59,109 nt of DNA from a virus: positions 1-59,109 of IMG/VR virus record IMGVR_UViG_3300030102_001767; one strand, given 5' to 3'. The first letter of the stretch is position 1, and the number at the start of each line of letters is the position of its first letter. Both the position numbers and the translations under genes were made by a program. The notes below the pieces were generated by a model. The model was given only the letters and a program-made list of their open reading frames with translations. It had not been told where the DNA came from and made no database searches. Shown here piece by piece: positions 23 to 52,494 of this stretch.

Positions 23-202
23 TTAATCATCATGCACAAAACAATAAGACTTAGTGTAACCCCATGTGCAGTTTGACCAATCGTGTTTGCCTTCAATAAA
101 CTTAGGAAAGCCTGAATCAGTTAATGAATTATCAACCTTTTCTAATTCCGTATATATGAAAGTTTTATTTTTCTTCATATCAACTACAGTCAAAACAGTC
201 AT
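23..202 (-). CDS. Small hypothetical protein, 59 aa
   Basis: Short open frame read on the minus strand from an ATG at 202, with a good ribosome site (AAGGAG) about 10 bases upstream. Its start overlaps the stop of the preceding gene by one base (TAATG), so it looks translationally coupled and is the last gene of the operon that begins with the AAA+ ATPase at 5251. The protein begins MTVLTVVDMKKNKTF and has two cysteines in its C-terminal third (SNCTWGY, SYCFVHDD). No family is recognised. The coding claim rests on the ribosome site and tight packing. Confidence 0.6.
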   Translation of the reverse strand: MTVLTVVDMKKNKTFIYTELEKVDNSLTDSGFPKFIEGKHDWSNCTWGYTKSYCFVHDD

Positions 203-363
203 TAATTTTTCTCCTTGTTCATTGGTTCGTAATTAATTTTTTCTTTTCTATATTTTTCGTCTAACTTTTTGACCCAATCTTTTAAGCCATTTAATTCACC
301 GACATATAAATTTTCACCTACCCTTACAGTAGTTTTACTTTTAAATTTTTTAGTGTTGGACAT
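202..363 (-). CDS. Small hypothetical protein, 53 aa
   Basis: Minus-strand frame starting at an ATG at 363, which lies inside the end of the preceding gene (14-base overlap). A GGAGGGA ribosome site lies just upstream, inside that gene. The product is lysine-rich and starts MSNTKKFKSKTTVRVGENLY, with an amphipathic middle (LNGLKDWVKKLDEKYRKEK). It ends sharing one base with the next start. No family recognised; it looks like a genuine small operon member. Confidence 0.6.
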   Translation of the reverse strand: MSNTKKFKSKTTVRVGENLYVGELNGLKDWVKKLDEKYRKEKINYEPMNKEKN

Positions 364-745
364 TCATTCCCTCCTGATTTTCTCCTTTGTAAGTTTGTAA
401 AAGTGATTTTAGAATTGATAGTTTTTGTTCGCTATCTTTCATTTCTTTATTATTAATCCAAGAGTCAACATCATTCAGTATTGTATCAGCAAAAACATAA
501 TCCATAGTTAAATTTAAAAATCTTGTTGCCATTTCCAAGACCTCTTTCTCATCTTCGAAAGGGTACTTTGATAAATGTAATTTAAAATTATCCATAAAGA
601 ACTGAGCCATTTCTCTGTTATCATGTATTACAGGAAATATCTTTTCTTTTAAATCTTCTCTTATGTTTATAGTTTTACTTAATTGAATAGTTTCTTCTTC
701 TATGTTCCATTCTTCTCTCAACTTATCACCTCTTTTTTTACTCAT
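350..745 (-). CDS. Hypothetical helical protein, 131 aa
   Basis: Minus-strand gene with an AAGGAT ribosome site ahead of its ATG at 745. The product is charged, probably all helical, and has no membrane segment or signal peptide. I do not recognise a domain. It lies in the tail of the operon begun by the AAA+ ATPase; about 120 bases without a clear gene separate it from the 50-aa gene upstream, so a secondary promoter there is possible. It overlaps the next gene by 14 bases, consistent with coupled translation. Confidence 0.75.
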   Translation of the reverse strand: MSKKRGDKLREEWNIEEETIQLSKTINIREDLKEKIFPVIHDNREMAQFFMDNFKLHLSKYPFEDEKEVLEMATRFLNLTMDYVFADTILNDVDSWINNKEMKDSEQKLSILKSLLQTYKGENQEGMNVQH

Positions 746-868
746 TTTCTTATCCTTTTGTCTAAAATTGGGGGGTACTTACATATCAGGTGACCCCTAA
801 AACCCTCTGTAATCGCATTTATGAAGGTCGTTTTTTTCTAAAACTACCCAAAAAATGCAAATCTCTAG

Positions 869-1021
869 TTATTTCCAACATTTATAATGAATCCCTTCGT
901 CACTATGTCTGCCACAAAAATGACAATAGCCTTCTTCATCATAGTGATTCATTGACTCTTCGTACTCTTGTTGGTCTGCTAAATACTCTTGCTCGCTTAT
1001 CTCGTACTCTTTATCAATCAT
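869..1021 (-). CDS. 50-aa putative zinc-ribbon-like protein
   Basis: Minus-strand frame from ATG at 1021, with ribosome site AAGGAG about 10 bases upstream, overlapping the stop of the 176-aa gene. The N-terminal half is very acidic and Tyr/Glu-rich (MIDKEYEISEQEYLADQQEY). The C-terminal half carries GYCHFCGRHSDEG and KCW, that is Cys-x2-Cys plus His and a further Cys, the spacing of a tiny zinc knuckle. Function unknown. The metal-binding reading is inference; coding is supported by ribosome site, overlap and ordered cysteines. Confidence 0.65.
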   Translation of the reverse strand: MIDKEYEISEQEYLADQQEYEESMNHYDEEGYCHFCGRHSDEGIHYKCWK

Positions 1022-1544
1022 TTTGATTCTCCTTCTTATCTTTTATGTAATTTAAAAATTCTAAAAAACTTTCGAACTCATGAACTATTAGTTTGTCATC
1101 TGTTGAATAGTTTTTATTCCTGATATTACTTTTAATAGTTTGAGAAATATCATGTGGATTGGTGAGGTAAACAGTTTCATCAACTATCTTATCTTTTGAA
1201 TAACCGATTTTAGTTTTATATTCCAACACCATGATAGGCTCATCAACTAAAGTATCAAGACCTCTACTCGCTTTAATCAAAACTTTTTGGTCTTTAGTTA
1301 CATATTCGTAATCGTATTTATACCTTTTATCAATCTCCATTGTTGATTCAATATGACCAACAAAAGAACTTATTTTAAAATCTTTATTATAACCACTAAA
1401 ATCAAAACTAGTGTCTACTTGTTTGTCAAAATTTTTCATACTCTTATGTTTAATATCTGTAAACAACTGACTCTGAATTTCATACATCTGTTTTGTTTGG
1501 TTACTTTTGCAGAAATCATATAAATTAAAATCGTAGCTTTTCAT
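1014..1544 (-). CDS. Hypothetical protein, 176 aa
   Basis: Minus-strand gene in the AAA+/VWA operon. Its ATG at 1544 overlaps the stop of the 70-aa gene by four bases (ATGA). The product is mixed alpha/beta and hydrophilic with no signal peptide. The middle (residues about 50-130) is rich in alternating hydrophobic/Lys patterns that suggest a beta-sheet domain. No family recognised. One copy of the AT-rich dyad lies 19 bases upstream of the start, inside the preceding gene, so this gene and those after it may have their own promoter or operator. Confidence 0.8.
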   Translation of the reverse strand: MKSYDFNLYDFCKSNQTKQMYEIQSQLFTDIKHKSMKNFDKQVDTSFDFSGYNKDFKISSFVGHIESTMEIDKRYKYDYEYVTKDQKVLIKASRGLDTLVDEPIMVLEYKTKIGYSKDKIVDETVYLTNPHDISQTIKSNIRNKNYSTDDKLIVHEFESFLEFLNYIKDKKENQND

Positions 1545-1753
1545 TTTGTCACCTCATCAGAATTAAATATATCAGGTGATATATGTAAATTTACAAGATA
1601 CCTAATATATTTTTTGTACAGTTTGCTGTCGTATTTTTTTAGACAACGGATAATTTGTTCAGGTTTTAGATTGCCTGATTTAATTGCTTTCTCCGATAGC
1701 CGAACAACTAATTGCTCGGCTACATCTCCAATACTAATAAAATCATTTACCAT
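1541..1753 (-). CDS. Hypothetical protein, 70 aa
   Basis: Minus-strand gene whose ATG overlaps the stop of the VWA gene by one base (TAATG). The product starts MVNDFISIGDVAEQLVVRLS and is helical. The segment ISIGDVAEQL resembles the first helix of an excisionase/MerR-type winged helix, but the rest does not convince me. No function assigned. Tight coupling to the VWA gene suggests it is made together with that system. Confidence 0.75.
   Translation of the reverse strand: MVNDFISIGDVAEQLVVRLSEKAIKSGNLKPEQIIRCLKKYDSKLYKKYIRYLVNLHISPDIFNSDEVTK
1563..1588. promoter_or_regulatory. AT-rich dyad, copy 1
   Basis: TTAAATATAT-CAGGTG-ATATATGTAA: two AT-rich arms with one mismatch around a 6-base centre. 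It lies inside the 70-aa gene, 19 bases upstream of the start at 1544. Same architecture (ATATAT-N6-ATATAT) as copies at 5345, 13502, 50929, 53281 and 59047. Probably a binding site for a dimeric regulator or part of a phage promoter; not proven. Confidence 0.5.
1584..1595. repeat. Perfect palindrome TGTAAATTTACA
   Basis: Perfect 12-base palindrome abutting the AT-rich dyad at 1563-1588. The same 12-mer recurs twice downstream of the cytosine methyltransferase (52531 and 52581). Here it is inside coding sequence, so it may be chance, but three exact copies suggest an operator. Confidence 0.35.
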
Positions 1754-3096
1754 TAATAACTCTCCTCATAAATATTTACTGTTTCTCCCCAACTCACATT
1801 GTCAGGTCTATCATATCCTGTGGTAGCCCAAATGAAAGGATAGTCAGGCTCATCATCATCAGTTAAATCCCAAGACTCACAGTCGGTAAAGTACATTGCG
1901 AACCCAATCTCATTTTGAATATTAGTTTTCTCAATGAGGTTTAGGAAAGGTTTAAAACTTGTGCCACCATTCATCATGTCACGCATTTCAATCTCCTCAC
2001 CTCTTTCAAAAATATCCCAAAACCTCATCAGGTCTGTATCAGGTAAATCTTCGTGAAGGACTACAGGGTGGTCATTGATATAAGTGATATAAACTTTTTC
2101 AATCTCGAACTCCTCTTGAATTGTTTCAATCTCTTTGACCATTTGTTGTCTTGCTCTTAGACCAACACTTCCTGAAATGTCGATAGCGAAAGCCATAGAC
2201 ATCATTGGTGTTTCAACATTGCTCGGTAAATACATATCTTGAGCAACGAATCTTCGGTTAGGTCTTTTGTAGGATTGCTCAGAACTTTCAACTAATGAAC
2301 TAGCATAATCTCTAAGTGTATCTCTCCAATCTTGAGGAACACCTTGTCCGTTTCTAGCATTGCCAACTGAATTGTAATCTGAACCTTGACCAACTGCTTT
2401 TTGTATTTGGTCAGATTGAATTATTCTTTCAGTAATCTCTTGAGATAATTGAGCAGAGGTTTTGATACCTTTTCCGTCACCACCACTTTCAATATCTTTT
2501 TTCTTTTCTTCTTGTTCATCATATTGAATAACACCACCACCCATTTGATTGTGTCCATTCTCAGCTTGGTTAGTAGAAGGATTGATAATAATTCCTTGAG
2601 CAGTTTCTTGTGGTGGATTTTTGGTGATAAGAATTTGGTAAACTTTCTCAGCACTCAATGTTTTGAACTCTCTCATTCCAACATTGAAATAATCTTGATA
2701 ATCATAAAATTCAATTCCACCTAATTTACGAATATTAGCACCATGATTCATTTTACTGCTCATGTATTCCAACTCGGTATTGATTACCAAATCGGTAGCG
2801 ATATTCCAAATCTCAGGATTTCTTTTTCCCATTCGAGTCATATGTTGCCAACCAACATGAAGAACCTCATGCAAGAAAACTGTTTCAATTAATTGTCTTG
2901 CTAACTTGTCACCATGTTCTTCAAACCAACCATTTAATGCTACCTCGTTGTAGAATACTGCCACCCCATTTGTCGCCATTAAAGGAACATCAGAAGTTTC
3001 TTCTATTTTCAGGGGTAGCATGATTGAACCCCAACCTGAGTTATTAATGACTATATTCTGTCTAACTCTTTTTATTTCTAATTCAATATTTTTCAT
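1753..3096 (-). CDS. DUF2201-like metallopeptidase/VWA protein
   Basis: A 447-residue protein with two recognisable halves. Residues about 70-105 contain HEVLH (76-80) followed by the WNIATDLVIN stretch, the pattern of the DUF2201 putative metallopeptidase family, with H76, E77 and H80 as likely zinc ligands/catalyst. A polar linker (about 165-285, GHNQMGGG and charged) leads to a von Willebrand A-like domain. Its MIDAS residues are complete: D306-x-S308-x-S310, T379 in GGTSF, and D405 in YFTDCE. In bacteria such VWA proteins act with MoxR-type AAA+ ATPases, and the ATPase is two genes upstream here. Peptidase activity is unproven; the HExxH may be structural. It probably acts in the cytoplasm, as no signal peptide is seen. 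Confidence 0.85.
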   Translation of the reverse strand: MKNIELEIKRVRQNIVINNSGWGSIMLPLKIEETSDVPLMATNGVAVFYNEVALNGWFEEHGDKLARQLIETVFLHEVLHVGWQHMTRMGKRNPEIWNIATDLVINTELEYMSSKMNHGANIRKLGGIEFYDYQDYFNVGMREFKTLSAEKVYQILITKNPPQETAQGIIINPSTNQAENGHNQMGGGVIQYDEQEEKKKDIESGGDGKGIKTSAQLSQEITERIIQSDQIQKAVGQGSDYNSVGNARNGQGVPQDWRDTLRDYASSLVESSEQSYKRPNRRFVAQDMYLPSNVETPMMSMAFAIDISGSVGLRARQQMVKEIETIQEEFEIEKVYITYINDHPVVLHEDLPDTDLMRFWDIFERGEEIEMRDMMNGGTSFKPFLNLIEKTNIQNEIGFAMYFTDCESWDLTDDDEPDYPFIWATTGYDRPDNVSWGETVNIYEESY

Positions 3097-3122
3097 TTTA
3101 TTTTCCCTATAATTTTAAAATG

Positions 3123-4124
3123 TTAAACACCAAAAATATCTTTAGAATTTTCCAACTCTTTAGATAATTTTTCTGTTACTGTTTTTCTTTCTTTGGAATC
3201 TTCTCTAAGTGATTTACTTGTAGAGTTACCGATTGCCTTTTCAACAGCATTGATAATTTCCTCTACTCGCTCATCATTAAAGATTTCATTCCTACCTTTT
3301 AATCCTGTTAAGGTTTTTCTAAGGTTAGGAATTTTAGAATCTCTGAAAGGTTTTTTCTTTCCTGTTTCAGCATTAGGATTGAACTCACTCAAAGAAACCA
3401 CAACATCAGTAATTCCTGATATTAAATCTTCCTGATTTCTTTCTGCAACCTCAACCAATTTATTATCCCAATATGAAATAGAATAATTACTAACCTCACC
3501 AAGAAGATTTTTAATTCCTCCTTCACCATAGGTGGTAAAAGTTTCATCAGAAACATCACCAATGACTGTGGGTATTTCAATGTTTGAAAACTCGGTATGA
3601 ATTAAACCTTTCGTAGTTTTGGTTTTATAAATTGGGTTTGCCTTCGTACCACCAACTTGTTTGGTTACTTGCCCACCAATTATTTCTTCTTTGGTAGGGT
3701 ACAAGTTTTCGTCAAAGGCAGAACCTAATTCAACTTTTGCCTGTGCCTTTAGGTCAGGTAAATCTTTGATGAGGTTATCTCTAAGAGAATCAAAATCTCC
3801 TTTGAAATCATTCCAAATTTCATTGTATTTTTTTCTATTCTCATTAGGCAATAATCTCCACTCTGAATCCCACACGCAAGTATGATAAGACATTTCATTT
3901 TTTCTTTGTCTGTCTAACTTTCTCATCTCTTTAATGGGTGTTAGGTCTATAAGATTTTTTCTAACCTGAAACCAATCAGCATTTCCTTTTACATCACTCG
4001 CTACTGCTTGAGTTAATTCAGGGGAGTCTTTTGTTGCTCCCCAAATTTTTGCTCTAGCTTTTACAAGTGTAGCTTTGGTATGTAAATCTTCAGCTAAATT
4101 ATATTTTGTTTCTTCTTGTTTCAT
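3123..4124 (-). CDS. Conserved phage helper of the AAA+/VWA pair
   Basis: A 333-residue protein between the AAA+ ATPase and the VWA protein. The frame is open to a GTG at 4136, but GGAGG sits five bases before the ATG at 4124, so I start there. The N-terminal 150 residues show a pattern I associate with uncharacterised podophage proteins: KARAKIWGATKD, then YHTCVWDSEWRLLP, then a helical stretch ending in a Leu-Gly ... YPTKEEI motif. The C-terminal part is helical and charged. No enzyme motif is visible. By position it is likely an adaptor or third subunit joining ATPase and VWA protein; this is inference from the conserved three-gene order. Confidence 0.8.
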   Translation of the reverse strand: MKQEETKYNLAEDLHTKATLVKARAKIWGATKDSPELTQAVASDVKGNADWFQVRKNLIDLTPIKEMRKLDRQRKNEMSYHTCVWDSEWRLLPNENRKKYNEIWNDFKGDFDSLRDNLIKDLPDLKAQAKVELGSAFDENLYPTKEEIIGGQVTKQVGGTKANPIYKTKTTKGLIHTEFSNIEIPTVIGDVSDETFTTYGEGGIKNLLGEVSNYSISYWDNKLVEVAERNQEDLISGITDVVVSLSEFNPNAETGKKKPFRDSKIPNLRKTLTGLKGRNEIFNDERVEEIINAVEKAIGNSTSKSLREDSKERKTVTEKLSKELENSKDIFGV

Positions 4125-4135
4125 TAGAACCTCCA

Positions 4136-5251
4136 CTAAACAAAATCTATTTCAGTATTAGCTAGAGAAAAATCTGTGAATGATTTTGTATTCATCAAAT
4201 CTTTTTCTATCTTGATACCATGTTGAGTAAAAAATACTGTGAACTCTTTGCTCTCAAATCTATTGAGATATTCGATAGCAGAACTGAAAACTTTTTCTTT
4301 TCTTTTCTTGCTGTCGCCTTCTCTAACTTTTTGTAGCAATGCTCCTGTTACAGCAAATCTAATATTGGTATCTTCAGAACTAATAAAATCTGCGTCTTGA
4401 GGATTTTCAATAATTGATTCCATACTCGGTGCTTTGGATAAAGTTTTCTCGAAAGATAAAATATTTTGAGCAACCTCTGAGCCAACAGTAGATTGATAAG
4501 TAGCAAGTTTTAATTCATCAATAATTGCGTCAGCATTTAAAATTTCAGATAATGCAACAGCACTTCTTGGTGAGCAGAATTGTTCGCTCTTATTTTTTCT
4601 ATCGTAATTCCATAAATTCTGTGGCTCGAATCTGAAGTAGCTAGTGATAAGAGGGTGAACACCATTTTCACTCGCCCATAAATCCCAAGACTCATGAGAG
4701 AACTCAATATCAAGAACTGCTGTTCTATTAAGCATAGCCATGTTGAGATTTCCAACTCCAGCATTATCTTCTTTTCTATTTGTTGCTCCGATAATTTTCC
4801 AACCCTTCGGCAGTACATAAGAACCAATTTCTCTTTCAAGAATTAGAGATTGAAAAACTTTCTGCACATCAGCACTAGCAGAACCAACCTCATCAAGAAA
4901 TAATATTCCTTTTGAATTTGGATTCTTTGGTAGTGACGACATGAACTTGTGAACCATTTCGTCTTGGTCTTTGTCATATGTTGGCAAGTACAAATCCTGA
5001 ACTCCATAATGAGAACCCATAATTTGAACTAGACCAAATTCTTTGGCAGTAGGTGTTGGAGTCATTACAGGAGTCAGTCCTAGATTGATTTCTTCATCTC
5101 TCCATAACTGCTTTACTGATTCAGATTTTCCAATACCTGAACCACCTCGCAAAAGAGGAACAAGACTGTTGACCTTTTCGTTTTCTGAAATCCAAAGTTT
5201 CTTTGTGAAATCTTTGGCGTTTTTAATATTGATATTTGTAGTATCATTCAT
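4136..5251 (-). CDS. MoxR-like AAA+ ATPase
   Basis: A 371-residue AAA+ ATPase and the first gene of the minus-strand operon, with a GGGAG ribosome site. Walker A is GGSGIGKS (36-43), Walker B ILFLDEV (116-122), sensor 1 IIGATNR (153-159), and a candidate arginine finger lies in MLNRTA (about 173-178). The LYLPTYD segment before Walker B is typical of the MoxR/AAA_5 group. MoxR ATPases remodel or activate target proteins together with VWA partners; the VWA gene is two genes downstream. The frame is followed at once by the helper gene. No substrate can be read from sequence. Some marine phage annotations call similar genes cobS, but nothing here points to cobalamin synthesis. Confidence 0.88.
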   Translation of the reverse strand: MNDTTNINIKNAKDFTKKLWISENEKVNSLVPLLRGGSGIGKSESVKQLWRDEEINLGLTPVMTPTPTAKEFGLVQIMGSHYGVQDLYLPTYDKDQDEMVHKFMSSLPKNPNSKGILFLDEVGSASADVQKVFQSLILEREIGSYVLPKGWKIIGATNRKEDNAGVGNLNMAMLNRTAVLDIEFSHESWDLWASENGVHPLITSYFRFEPQNLWNYDRKNKSEQFCSPRSAVALSEILNADAIIDELKLATYQSTVGSEVAQNILSFEKTLSKAPSMESIIENPQDADFISSEDTNIRFAVTGALLQKVREGDSKKRKEKVFSSAIEYLNRFESKEFTVFFTQHGIKIEKDLMNTKSFTDFSLANTEIDFV

Positions 5252-5532: not shown

Positions 5533-6030
5533 ATGAAAGATAAAGACAAAGACAAACCAAAATTAGTTTTAGTAAGTGAATCGGCAAGTAAGAAAAAATC
5601 GCCAACCGATTTACCGATACTGACACCGAAACAGAAAAAGTTTTTGGAAGGTATAACCAAAGGAAAACTCTCGGCTACTGAAAGTTATCGGCTCGCATAT
5701 GATTGTGAAGGCATGAAAGATTCTTCGGTCTATGTTGAGAGTAGCAAATTAATTCGTCACCCAAAGATTACCCTACACTTAGAACGACATCAGGCAATGA
5801 TTGACCGAACTGCACAAGCCACCATGCTCTCTGTCAAAGAGTATGTGGAAAATGGATTGAAGGAAATAATTGAAGATGAGGATTCAAATGTTAATGCCAA
5901 AGTGTCTGCGTTATCTTGGCTCGGAAAATCTGTTGCAATGTTTACAGACAAAGTTGAGTCTACTGACGAAAATAAATCTGTCCAAGAACTAGAGGAAGAA
6001 CTCAGACGCAAGTTAGGTTTAACTGACTAA
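5533..6030 (+). CDS. terS: Terminase small subunit
   Basis: A 165-residue protein with a charged N-terminus, then LTPKQKKFLEGITKG (about 30-44), LSATESYRLAYDCEGM and an SSKLIRHPKI segment. This is the helix-turn-helix-like DNA-binding pattern of phage small terminase subunits (Terminase_2 type). The C-terminal half is helical and acidic and probably oligomerises and contacts TerL. TerS recognises the packaging site and stimulates the large subunit. It is unusual in being 3.3 kb and ten genes away from TerL. It ends in EELRRKLGLTD. Confidence 0.8.
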   Translation: MKDKDKDKPKLVLVSESASKKKSPTDLPILTPKQKKFLEGITKGKLSATESYRLAYDCEGMKDSSVYVESSKLIRHPKITLHLERHQAMIDRTAQATMLSVKEYVENGLKEIIEDEDSNVNAKVSALSWLGKSVAMFTDKVESTDENKSVQELEEELRRKLGLTD

Positions 6031-7215: not shown

Positions 7216-7459
7216 AGAACTAACAATAACTTTTAATCACGATCATAAAGCTACTTACATTTTAGTTAATGTTAATGGCGAATATCATAAAAAATACTTA
7301 ACAGAGCAACAACATGGAAATATATTACAGGGATGTGTTTCATCTTATTTTCAAAAAAGGTCTATCGCTTTGTTAAATGATGCTGTAAAGTTAGAAAAAG
7401 ATTCTGAAGAACTATTGGAGAAATCAGAAAAACTATTGGAAGTAGCAAAAAGTTTATAA
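7202..7459 (+). CDS. Hypothetical protein, 85 aa
   Basis: An 85-residue protein with a beta-rich N-terminal half (KELTITFNHDHKATYILVNV, then EYHKKYLT) and a C-terminal helix or coiled coil (residues about 55-85, with a KDSEELLEKSEKLLEVAKSL heptad-like pattern). It differs from its neighbours in not being Lys/Arg-rich. Its stop overlaps the next start (TAATG). No function recognised. Confidence 0.7.
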   Translation: MKETKELTITFNHDHKATYILVNVNGEYHKKYLTEQQHGNILQGCVSSYFQKRSIALLNDAVKLEKDSEELLEKSEKLLEVAKSL

Positions 7460-7761
7460 TGGCAGAAAGAAAAAAAGAAAAACCAATAAGAAGAACCACT
7501 AAAGGCAAAGGTGCTAATTATAGACCTACTAAATCTGGTGCTGGAATGACAGCAAAAGGAGTAAGGGAATATCGTAAAAAAAATCCTGGCTCTAAATTAA
7601 AAACTGCTGTTACTGGTAAAGTTAAAAAAGGTAGTAAAGCTGCAAAAAGAAGAAAAAGTTATTGTGCTAGGTCATTAGGTCAATTAAAAAGAAGTAGTGC
7701 TAAAACTAGAAATGATCCTAATTCTCGAATCAGACAAGCGAGAAGAAGGTGGAAATGTTAA
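7459..7761 (+). CDS. Basic DUF6321-like protein, 100 aa
   Basis: A very basic protein with motifs GAGMTAKGVREYRKKNPGSK (about 28-47), LKTAVTGKVKKGSKAAKRRK and YCARSLGQLK, ending in DPNSRIRQARRRWKC. I recognise this as the DUF6321-like pattern found in many marine viruses and phages. The conserved Cys residues are YC and the terminal KC. No biochemical role is established; the composition suggests DNA or RNA binding, for instance packaging-linked condensation. It is coupled to the upstream gene by a one-base overlap. Confidence 0.75.
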   Translation: MAERKKEKPIRRTTKGKGANYRPTKSGAGMTAKGVREYRKKNPGSKLKTAVTGKVKKGSKAAKRRKSYCARSLGQLKRSSAKTRNDPNSRIRQARRRWKC

Positions 7762-7776
7762 CAAAAGGAGATAATT

Positions 7777-7947
7777 ATGAAAAAATCTAAAGGTAAAGCT
7801 CGCAGAATGATGGGTGGCAAATCCGTAAAAGGAAAGGCTCGTAGAATGATGGGTGGTAAATCTGTTAAAGGAAAAATGAGAGGTGGAGTTACTCGCATGA
7901 AAGCTGGCAAAAAAGTTAAAGGTAAAACAAGAGGCGGCAAAAGATAA
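7777..7947 (+). CDS. Protamine-like tandem-repeat peptide, 56 aa
   Basis: Small frame with a strong AAGGAG ribosome site. The protein is almost only Lys, Arg, Gly, Met, Ser and Val. A 13-residue unit, KGKARRMMGGKSV, occurs twice in a row, then a third partial unit (KGKMRGG) and KGKTRGG near the end. This is the composition of a protamine or histone-tail-like DNA-condensing peptide. There is no secondary structure to speak of. I infer nucleic-acid binding from charge only. The DNA repeats are diverged at third positions, as expected for selection on protein. Confidence 0.7.
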   Translation: MKKSKGKARRMMGGKSVKGKARRMMGGKSVKGKMRGGVTRMKAGKKVKGKTRGGKR

Positions 7948-8634: not shown

Positions 8635-8835
8635 ATGGCTACAAAGAAAAAAACAAAAAAGAAAACTAAATCTCGTGTAAATGAAGCAGGTAATTATACT
8701 AAACCTTCTATGAGAAAAAGTTTATTTAATAAAATAAAAGCAGGAAGCAAAGGTGGTAGACCAGGACAATGGTCTGCTAGAAAAGCACAAATGCTTGCTA
8801 AACAATATAAAGCAAAAGGTGGTGGCTATAAATAA
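8635..8835 (+). CDS. Small basic protein, 66 aa (KGGRPGQWSARKAQ motif)
   Basis: Lys-rich N-terminus (MATKKKTKKKTKSRVNEAG) followed by a conserved-looking block, KAGSKGGRPGQWSARKAQML and GGGYK. The second block recurs in small proteins and domain fusions of marine phages and large eukaryotic viruses (DUF5872-like, as I recall). Its stop overlaps the next start by one base. Likely nucleic-acid associated; no activity known. Confidence 0.7.
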   Translation: MATKKKTKKKTKSRVNEAGNYTKPSMRKSLFNKIKAGSKGGRPGQWSARKAQMLAKQYKAKGGGYK

Positions 8836-9077
8836 TGGCACTTAAAAAAACACAAAAATCTTTAAAAAGATGGGGTAAACAAAAATGGAGAACCCCTAGT
8901 GGAAAAAAATCATCTGAGACTGGAGAAGTATATGCACCTTCTTCTACTATTAAAAAATTAAAATCTACTGCAAAAGGAAGAGCCAAACTTTCAAGAGCAA
9001 ACAAAAAGAAAAGAGAAGCCACATCTAAAGGTAAGCAACATGCTAGACATGGTTTACATAAAGGTAAAAAAAGATAA
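8835..9077 (+). CDS. Small basic protein, 80 aa (WRTPSGK motif)
   Basis: A basic protein beginning MALKKTQKSLKRWGKQKWRT, then PSGKKSSETGEVYAPSSTIK, and a Lys/Arg-rich C-terminus (KANKKKREATSKGK region). The W-x3-QKWRT-x-SGK block is a recurring module in viral basic proteins, often near the GGRPGQWSARKAQ module that the preceding gene encodes. The two may act together. Coupled by one-base overlaps on both sides. Confidence 0.7.
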   Translation: MALKKTQKSLKRWGKQKWRTPSGKKSSETGEVYAPSSTIKKLKSTAKGRAKLSRANKKKREATSKGKQHARHGLHKGKKR

Positions 9078-50414: not shown

Positions 50415-50927
50415 ATGGCAAGACAGGAAAACGACTTTTATCCAACGCCTCCAGAGGCAACTCAATTACTATTAGATAATGAAACATTTGAAGGAATGGT
50501 ATGGGAATGTGCTTGTGGTGATGGTGCAATGGCTAATGTTCTTGAAGATAATGGTTACACAGTTGTAGCAACAGACCTTAATTATTATAATTATGGTATT
50601 CCAGGTAAAAACTTTTTAAATGCAGATATGAAGTTAGCACCAAATGTTTGTACAAATCCACCATTTAAAGTAGCACAGGAGTTTATACAAAAATGTATAG
50701 ACTTAAAGGTTGATAAGTTTGCTATGTTTCTTAGACTTTCTTTTTTAGAAAGTGTTAAAAGAAGGTCTTTTTTTCAAGAAAATCCACCAGTTAGAATTTG
50801 GGTTATGAGTAAAAGATTTACCTTGTGGAGAGGAGACCAAAAAAGAAACGGCAATGGTATTACTCCATACGCTTGGTTTGTGTGGGAAAAAGATAACGAA
50901 GAAAGACCAGTTTTATGGTGGTTGTAA
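50415..50927 (+). CDS. DNA adenine methyltransferase-like
   Basis: A 170-residue protein with the SAM-binding WECACGDGAMANVLEDNGYT (about 30-49) and TNPPFKVAQEFIQKCIDLKV (about 79-98, the N-P-P-F version of the DPPY-like catalytic motif). This is the phage DNA N-6-adenine methyltransferase family that lacks a separate target-recognition domain. It methylates adenine in DNA, probably against host restriction, next to the cytosine methyltransferase. GGGAGAAT ribosome site. Confidence 0.8.
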   Translation: MARQENDFYPTPPEATQLLLDNETFEGMVWECACGDGAMANVLEDNGYTVVATDLNYYNYGIPGKNFLNADMKLAPNVCTNPPFKVAQEFIQKCIDLKVDKFAMFLRLSFLESVKRRSFFQENPPVRIWVMSKRFTLWRGDQKRNGNGITPYAWFVWEKDNEERPVLWWL

Positions 50928-50928
50928 T

Positions 50929-50954
50929 TTAAATATATTAGGTAATATATTTAA
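50929..50954. promoter_or_regulatory. AT-rich dyad, copy 4
   Basis: TTAAATATAT-TAGGTA-ATATATTTAA, arms perfect. It lies right after the adenine methyltransferase stop and 16 bases before the cytosine methyltransferase ATG, just ahead of its ribosome site. Likely an operator or phage promoter element. Confidence 0.6.
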
Positions 50955-50970
50955 TTTAAGGGAGAGAATT

Positions 50971-52494
50971 ATGAATGTTTTAAGTTTATTTGATGGTATG
51001 TCTTGCACTCAGATTGCACTAAAAAATCTTGGCATAAAAGTTGATAAATATTATGCAAGTGAGATAGATAAGTATGCAATAGATATAACAAGAAAAAATT
51101 TTCCAAATACGATACATCTTGGAGATGTAAAAAATATAAAAGGATCAGACTTTTTATATGACATAGACTTAATAGTTGCAGGCAGCCCTTGTCAGGGATT
51201 TAGTTTTGCAGGAAAGCAGTTGGCATTTAACGATCCTCGTTCTGCACTGTTTTTTGAGTTTATTAGATTGTTAAAAGAGCTACAACCTAAATACTTTTTG
51301 CTTGAGAATGTTCGTATGAAGAAGGAATATTTAGATGTTATATCGCAACAGGTGTCAGCAATATATCCAGAATGTAATAATGGGAGTTTATTTGGTATTG
51401 AGCCTATACTTATTAATTCAGCAAAACTCTCAGCTCAAAATAGAAATAGATTTTATTGGACTAATATACCTAATGTAGAGCAACCAGAAGACTTAGGTAT
51501 TGTTTTAAAAGATATAATAGAAGATAACTTTGTAACGGATAGAGATAAAAGCTACTGTATTGATGCTAATTATTATAAAGGAGGAAATCCAAAGACTTAC
51601 TTTAAAAAATCAAGAAGGCAATTAGTTTTTAATAAACCTAAAAAAGTAGGAATGAATGTTGAGGAAGTAAAAGTTAGAAAACATGAGGTAGATATTCCTA
51701 ATTTACAACAATTATTAAGAGTTTATAAATCTTCATCTAAAAAAACTCATAAACAAATAGCAAAAGAAATAAATATGCCTGTTACTAAGGTTGAGCATTG
51801 GTTCAGAACAGATACTAGCTTTGCTATTCCTAGCGATGACATTTGGTTCAAACTTAAAGATATATTAGGTATTGAAACTGATGTTTTTGATAAACAAATT
51901 ATGGAGTTTGAGTATAGAGATGGGGTGTATGAAACTAAACAAAGAGTTTATTCAGAGAATGGTAAATCACCTACCCTAACAGCTAGTAATAAAGAACAGT
52001 ATATTGAAACATACAGTACACCCAAACAAGTTGGAGTTGCCTCAGATATAAAAGGTTTTGATATAATAAAGAGAATATATTCTGAAAATGGTAAATCACC
52101 GACACTTACCACTATGCAAGGTGGACACAGAGAGCCTAAAATTGCTGTTAATTCTTACAGAGAAGTAAGAACAGAACAAGCCAAGAAAGAAAGAAAAAGA
52201 ATTAGAAAAGAAACAGGCAAAGACCATACACCTTTTAGAAGTAAAAAGTTGGTAGTAAGGGATGATAATAAAGTAGGAACAGTAACTCCTGCTTTAAATA
52301 ACGATCATAAAATATCTTTTAGCAGAGATGACTCAGAAGAACTAACATGGAGAAAGCTATCTGTTTTAGAATGTGAAAGACTCCAAACAGTTCCAGATAA
52401 TTATACAGAAGGTGTGTCTAACAGTCAGCGTTACAAAATGTTAGGCAATGGATTTACTGTAAAGGTTATCGAACATATATTAAAAAATATGTAG
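50971..52494 (+). CDS. DNA cytosine-5 methyltransferase
   Basis: A 507-residue enzyme. I start at ATG 50971 because AAGGGAG is just upstream; an earlier in-frame ATG would overlap the adenine methyltransferase. The catalytic motifs are LFDGMSC (about 5-11), GSPCQGFSFAG (about 71-81, nucleophile Cys), FLLENV (about 109-114), SAQNRNRFYWTNI and the C-terminal YKMLGNGFTV. An insert of about 230 residues carries a helix-turn-helix-like segment (KTHKQIAKEINMPVTKVEHW) and two copies of a SENGKSPTLT block. It makes 5-methylcytosine at an unknown site. No restriction enzyme is nearby, so it is a solitary phage defence enzyme. Confidence 0.9.
   Translation: MNVLSLFDGMSCTQIALKNLGIKVDKYYASEIDKYAIDITRKNFPNTIHLGDVKNIKGSDFLYDIDLIVAGSPCQGFSFAGKQLAFNDPRSALFFEFIRLLKELQPKYFLLENVRMKKEYLDVISQQVSAIYPECNNGSLFGIEPILINSAKLSAQNRNRFYWTNIPNVEQPEDLGIVLKDIIEDNFVTDRDKSYCIDANYYKGGNPKTYFKKSRRQLVFNKPKKVGMNVEEVKVRKHEVDIPNLQQLLRVYKSSSKKTHKQIAKEINMPVTKVEHWFRTDTSFAIPSDDIWFKLKDILGIETDVFDKQIMEFEYRDGVYETKQRVYSENGKSPTLTASNKEQYIETYSTPKQVGVASDIKGFDIIKRIYSENGKSPTLTTMQGGHREPKIAVNSYREVRTEQAKKERKRIRKETGKDHTPFRSKKLVVRDDNKVGTVTPALNNDHKISFSRDDSEELTWRKLSVLECERLQTVPDNYTEGVSNSQRYKMLGNGFTVKVIEHILKNM

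Follow-up and report, generated by a model that had tools for sequence, protein, structure and literature searches.

A co-inherited ATPase, helper and metallopeptidase-VWA core in a tailed phage, proposed as an ATP-driven remodelling machine shared with plasmids

Introduction

A 59,109-base virus record (IMGVR_UViG_3300030102_001767, positions 1-59,109; the whole stretch is hereafter called the window) belongs to a tailed phage and carries, on its minus strand, adjoining genes for an AAA+ ATPase, a helper protein related to DUF3150, and a protein combining a metallopeptidase-like zincin domain with a von Willebrand factor A (VWA) domain. Sequence comparison indicates that these genes are inherited as a unit and belong to the MoxR/VWA remodelling type: their active-site residues are intact, they are inherited and diverge together in phages, they recur as a triad on plasmids, and they lie on the strand opposite the late genes. 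We give about even chances to the reading that they specify a three-subunit machine, made outside the late operon, in which an ATP-driven and metal-ion-dependent adhesion site (MIDAS)-guided metallopeptidase would remodel an intracellular target.

Co-inheritance of the three genes in phages and plasmids

The comparison covered 82 distinct phage loci, comprising the window, locus L002 and 80 fetched loci, the top-ranking of at least 501 when ordered by similarity to the window. All three genes stand together in 48 of these 82, a count that holds for this selection and should not be read as how often the triad occurs among phages generally; 45 loci have the order ATPase-helper-VWA, two have helper-ATPase-VWA and one has ATPase-VWA-helper, so that the link between the genes survives reshuffling. 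Seven further loci hold the helper and the VWA gene, the ATPase side being truncated or beyond the sequence covered. The triad in the order ATPase-helper-VWA is also present in 6/6 plasmids examined, picked from the best 25 of 47 matches, and type IV secretion genes lie just downstream of it in three of the six. The three proteins also diverge in step, with pairwise distances strongly correlated (r 0.95-0.97; 43 loci), and the correlation remains at 0.73-0.83 when the terminase small subunit gene (terS) is taken into account (19 loci). The co-occurrence of a three-gene core, anticipated in an earlier sequence-only reading of this DNA, was recovered in both phages and plasmids.

Beyond this selection, 724 phage database records carry the ATPase and 293 the VWA protein. 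In the Burkholderia and Paraburkholderia conjugative plasmids L093, L106 and L107, the triad stands just upstream of VirB-type secretion genes. Genes for Nmad5 (nucleotide-modification-associated) proteins occur within or directly after the core in L062, L088, L057, L058 and about 18 more loci, several of which carry two; an Nmad5 gene fills the slot between ATPase and VWA genes in about 11 loci and directly follows the VWA gene in about 11 helper-bearing ones. In the Vequintavirus MaxBurger, the ATPase and VWA genes lie within a few kilobases of each other on opposite strands.

The metallopeptidase-VWA protein and the ATPase

Both halves of the metallopeptidase-VWA protein are recognized by Pfam above the gathering cut-offs (DUF2201_N, 87.1 bits against 23.2; DUF2201, 31.4 bits against 26.4). 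The HExxH residues (H76, E77, H80) and the five MIDAS residues (D306, S308, S310, T379, D405) show no variation in 77/77 aligned relatives, which bears out the HEVLH motif and complete MIDAS noted previously. The VWA fold of the predicted model matches known VWA domains over residues ~297-447 (VIA-align Z 12-13), and all 50 of the best VIA-align matches are VWA chains, with the N-terminal domain barely compared by fold. The assignment of the predicted zincin domain draws on the Pfam match, the invariant HExxH and a weak match of this end of the protein to an M48 peptidase (E 0.007). A third zinc ligand may be supplied by the WNxAxD motif, which is kept in phages not selected by pattern and in 6/6 plasmids; the Synechococcus phage MinM2 carries the variant HNIACDIRIN in place of the WNIATDLVIN form. 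Loci L011-L090 were chosen by the pattern WNxA[CAT]DxxIN, making invariance of the motif circular among them while leaving the HExxH and MIDAS counts unaffected. The family phrog_1314 bears the label 'HNH endonuclease', although its members here are zincin-VWA proteins, and this wrong name is widespread in annotated phage genomes.

The ATPase carries the Walker A, Walker B and sensor 1 elements and a sensor-2-like arginine expected of AAA+ proteins, with K42, D120, N158, P228 and R229 present in 61/61 aligned relatives, so that the intact motifs described earlier are upheld, and it is classed broadly as of midasin/MoxR/AAA_5 type. Pfam AAA_5 reaches the window protein below the gathering threshold (E 0.0013; 19.2 bits against 22). 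The closest solved structure to the family profile is midasin (3e-32), a far better match than CobS, which the same profile reaches at E 1e-6.

The helper, a distant relative of DUF3150

The helper was passed over in the sequence-only reading, and sequence comparison identifies it as the conserved third part of the proposed machine. The window protein alone finds no convincing match in Pfam or PHROG searches, with no Pfam match up to E 1, DUF3150 included, and no PHROG covers it convincingly. A profile built from it and one distant relative, however, detects this gene in the majority of related loci and defines a family of at least 49 members, of which 24/49 match PF11348 (DUF3150), the best at 6e-9. 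The AlphaFold2 (AF2) model is a single confident fold (pLDDT, predicted local distance difference test, 87), and Foldseek aligns it with a viral DUF3150 protein at E 5e-14 and TM scores of 0.70/0.79. From its relatives' sequences and its predicted fold, the helper is thus a member of a real family; because family and fold match while the window protein itself lacks a Pfam match, it is called a distant DUF3150 relative and not a DUF3150 member.

Foldseek found no match to the helper fold in the PDB at E 0.001. The VIA-align matches were to helical bundles alone, with Z values no higher than 9.5, which lie within the stated noise; neither result in itself indicates a new fold. A relationship to Nmad5 was rejected, since hhalign gives a match of the two profiles a probability of just 0.5%. 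A scan of genome contigs with the plasmid helper returned no relatives. In the complete genome of the Tunturiibacter phage Tunturi_3 (L095), in which no zincin-VWA gene was detected, a helper-family gene is labelled 'HNH endonuclease'.

Strand and timing

The core lies on the strand opposite terS in 33/33 loci that have terS, opposite the terminase large subunit gene (terL) in 11/11, and opposite portal-like genes in all loci holding them, while DNA polymerase (21/21) and exonuclease genes (29/29) share its strand. In addition, the homologues in phage N4, gp24 and gp25, are middle genes (PMC4193335). A purely virion role is disfavoured by the opposite strand of terS, the middle timing in N4 and the presence of the triad on plasmids. 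The sequence-only reading had left the target as a host or a virion component; these observations weaken the virion part and favour the host or intracellular part, and its remark that no target is known for the phage versions still stands.

Proposed mechanism and rival explanations

In the proposed mechanism, the three gene products would be the subunits of a single machine powered by ATP. Its ATPase may form a ring of the midasin/MoxR type on which the VWA protein would dock, with the MIDAS metal holding an acidic residue in a partner protein; for a contact with the helper, that residue may be the conserved D in the DxR motif of the helper family. The DUF3150-type helper could bridge the complex to that partner or present it. 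ATP turnover would then pull on the VWA protein so that the zincin domain bears on the target and, most simply, cuts it. A mechanical precedent is offered by NorQD, in which the ATPase remodels a linker in its VWA partner (PMC13036017). The target would be intracellular and common to phages and some plasmids, for example a complex for replication, transcription, DNA transfer or defence, and not virion parts alone, and in this phage the machine would probably be made apart from the late proteins.

Several points weigh against this reading. The invariant HExxH could hold a metal without cutting, peptidase activity being a prediction. Nor is the helper obligatory, since many phages, among them PA5oct, phage G and N4-like phages with complete genomes, carry the ATPase-VWA pair with no helper; among 30 records with no helper near the core, searched over their available sequence, none has one elsewhere, the only two matches in that search coming from MinM2 and Tunturi_3, helper-bearing phages also included in it. 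Conversely, Tunturi_3 has a helper and no such VWA gene. Strand is also an imperfect clock, since primase/helicase genes lie opposite the core in 29/31 loci. Finally, the PA5oct ATPase record is flagged as seen by electrospray-ionization tandem mass spectrometry (ESI-MS/MS), which may indicate a virion link.

That flag is consistent with an alternative which we regard as unlikely, namely a chaperone-protease of virion assembly and maturation that would fold, assemble and trim structural proteins, as proposed in print for group 2.2 jumbo phages with the MoxR-VWA system of an archaeal two-tailed virus as precedent (PMC7824862). It also fits the terS gene found nearby in 33 loci and the mid-phase structural module of roseophage RPP1 near homologues of N4 gp24/25 (PMC4193335). 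Against it stand the position of the core opposite terS, terL and portal-like genes wherever these are held, the middle-gene class of the N4 homologues, and the complete triads on plasmids, which speak against a virion-only target because plasmids make no virions. The same plasmid copies, together with placement outside the late operon, agree with a special case of the intracellular reading, in which the helper or the MIDAS would single out a defence or regulatory protein of the host to be destroyed as a means of counter-defence or host takeover: phages and plasmids face the same defences and both carry the triad, a constant core is surrounded by variable accessory genes, and Nmad5 can take the middle slot. 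We consider this narrower version quite unlikely, given that no host target or phenotype is known and that conservation over a broad set of unrelated hosts points to a more general target; PADLOC gave no match, a weakly informative result from a defence library. Membership of the core in a defence system was rejected on that same PADLOC result.

The least likely of the explanations considered takes the zincin site as a metal carrier that does no cutting, the machine being a cobaltochelatase-like or other device for metal insertion into a metalloenzyme of the host or the phage. Such a 'CobST' role has been assigned in tailed viruses, haloarchaeal ones among them (PMC8651126), metal insertion is known for MoxR/VWA pairs including NorQD (PMC13036017), and CobS is within reach of the ATPase profile. 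However, curated NCBIfam models for CobS and CobT gave no match to the window and L088 proteins, neither the VWA protein nor the helper having any NCBIfam match and the ATPase none to CobS; midasin is far the better match for the ATPase; and the VWA protein has the DUF2201_N+DUF2201 architecture, with an N-terminal HExxH domain absent from the CobT described in PMC8651126.

Comparison with known systems

The pairing of AAA+ with VWA proteins is already known, as is the metallopeptidase-VWA fusion in phages (PMC7824862; PMC8651126 for the pair). In jumbo phages, a MoxR protein accompanies a VWA protein whose N-terminal part is a metallopeptidase (ASV44729/ASV44728), the same combination as in the window, and was read as serving virion assembly with proteolysis (PMC7824862); that report describes the pair, whereas in the present loci a DUF3150-type subunit is kept as a third member between the two, in smaller phages and on plasmids. 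N4 gp24/gp25 and their Schitoviridae counterparts are a homologous ATPase and VWA protein encoded side by side, but their neighbouring genes differ from those of the window, and Zuri and PhAPEC5, the two Schitoviridae examined as complete genomes, have no helper. In MinM2, MoxR, DUF3150-annotated and VWA genes lie close together, as in the window triad, although the window helper, lacking a Pfam match, resembles DUF3150 proteins through its relatives and fold. The viral 'CobST' of tailed viruses is likewise an AAA+ protein paired with a VWA/MIDAS protein, but it was assigned to cobalt chelation (PMC8651126), whereas the window VWA protein is of DUF2201_N/DUF2201 type with no CobT model match. 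In ternary MoxR-vWA conflict systems, the third component is a VMAP, iSTAND, FtsH or beta-propeller protein (PMC7159879); no Pfam, NCBIfam or PADLOC match to any of these was obtained, and the third gene here is DUF3150-like. RavA-ViaA, NorQ-NorD and midasin, with AAA+ modules of the same broad clade and a VWA/MIDAS partner or domain, provide a plausible mechanical model, and to our knowledge none of them has a zincin domain or a DUF3150 helper.

Locus layout and accessory genes

The core and the small open reading frames (ORFs) behind it all lie on the minus strand (Table 1), the core running from 5251 to 1753, while the plus strand bears the genes for both terminase subunits, portal and capsid. 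From 5251 downwards, the order is ATPase, helper, zincin-VWA protein, ORFs of 70, 176 and 50 aa (amino acids), a 123-base spacer, and three more ORFs encoding 131, 53 and 59 aa. The sister contig L001 has the same arrangement, with helper and VWA proteins 100% identical to those of the window, and extends beyond the window end.

Table 1. Features of the core and its surroundings in the window.
Feature	Position	Strand	Evidence and remarks
AAA+ ATPase, 371 aa, midasin/MoxR/AAA_5 type	4136..5251	-	phrog_1297, E 4e-62
Walker A GGSGIGKS (residues 36-43)	5123..5146	-	K42 in 61/61 relatives
Walker B ILFLDE (residues 116-121)	4889..4906	-	D120 in 61/61; position 121 is E in 50, D in 11
Sensor 1 N158	4778..4780	-	61/61 relatives
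Helper, 337 aa, DUF3150-related	3123..4136	-	start GTG 4136 or internal ATG 4124
Metallopeptidase-VWA protein, 447 aa	1753..3096	-	PF13203 2e-24, PF09967 2e-7, phrog_1314 2e-59; AF2 pLDDT 81
Zincin motif HEVLH (residues 76-80)	2857..2871	-	H76, E77, H80 in 77/77; kept in 6/6 plasmid copies
WNIATDLVIN (residues 97-106)	2779..2808	-	D102, candidate third zinc ligand
VWA domain (residues 302-442)	1771..2193	-	PF09967; VIA-align Z 12-13 to VWA/I domains
MIDAS DxSxS (residues 306-310)	2167..2181	-	completed by T379 (1960-1962) and D405 (1882-1884); 77/77
Small ORF, 70 aa	1541..1753	-	start overlaps VWA stop; no relatives in related loci
Small ORF, 176 aa	1014..1544	-	no Pfam/PHROG match; no relatives in related loci
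Small ORF, 50 aa	869..1021	-	CxxC-x8-HxxC (C33, C36, H45, C48); no relatives in related loci
Non-coding spacer, 123 bases	746..868	-	aligns with L001:11425-11560
Small ORF, 131 aa	350..745	-	after spacer, outside core; no relatives in related loci
Small ORF, 53 aa	202..363	-	no relatives in related loci
Small ORF, 59 aa	23..202	-	no relatives in related loci
Terminase small subunit	5533..6030	+	phrog_51 2e-14, PF03592 2e-7; divergent from core

The sequence-only reading had described one operon with seven attached small genes, proposed as adaptors or substrates of the machine. The junctions do overlap or abut as described, but six small ORFs were counted, none of which is matched by any gene in the approximately 80 related loci, so that co-occurrence with the core was not found. 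A single operon through all of them is doubtful: the spacer splits the series, and a spacer-like stretch recurs beyond the window end in L001, aligned on the small-gene strand, for which reasons the last three ORFs are probably a separate unit and the spacer itself probably a separate regulatory region. This non-coding repeat of about 120 bases may be a repeated promoter or operator. A role as adaptors or substrates fits poorly with the split and the lack of relatives. The Cys-x2-Cys knuckle reported for one small gene is present in the 50-aa ORF, where the motif proves fuller than described and possibly forms a zinc knuckle.

Elsewhere in the window, small and very Lys/Arg-rich proteins are encoded between the terminase subunit genes (7459-7947 and 8635-9077), one with 13-residue repeats (KARRMMGGKSVKG); they are perhaps DNA-binding or packaged. 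A C5-cytosine DNA methylase gene at 50854-52494 apparently contains a large insert (546 aa over a 324-position model).

Implications

In the literature searched, which was thin in subscription journals, neither a functional DUF3150 paper nor a description of the DUF3150-type third subunit, the Nmad5 swap or the plasmid triad was found, leaving novelty unproven. A bolder extension of the proposal, speculative and on balance doubtful, is that the triad would represent a new kind of AAA+ protease, with the peptidase borne on the VWA co-chaperone and not in a separate chamber, a DUF3150-type dedicated substrate receptor, and a common host target that unrelated phages and conjugative plasmids would attack shortly after their DNA enters the cell.

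In hundreds of sequenced phages the ATPase and the VWA protein occur with no known role; the conserved third subunit and the plasmid triad narrow that role to something common to phages and plasmids. The triad offers a defined three-protein complex for purification, and the N4 homologues make the ATPase-VWA pair testable in Escherichia coli.

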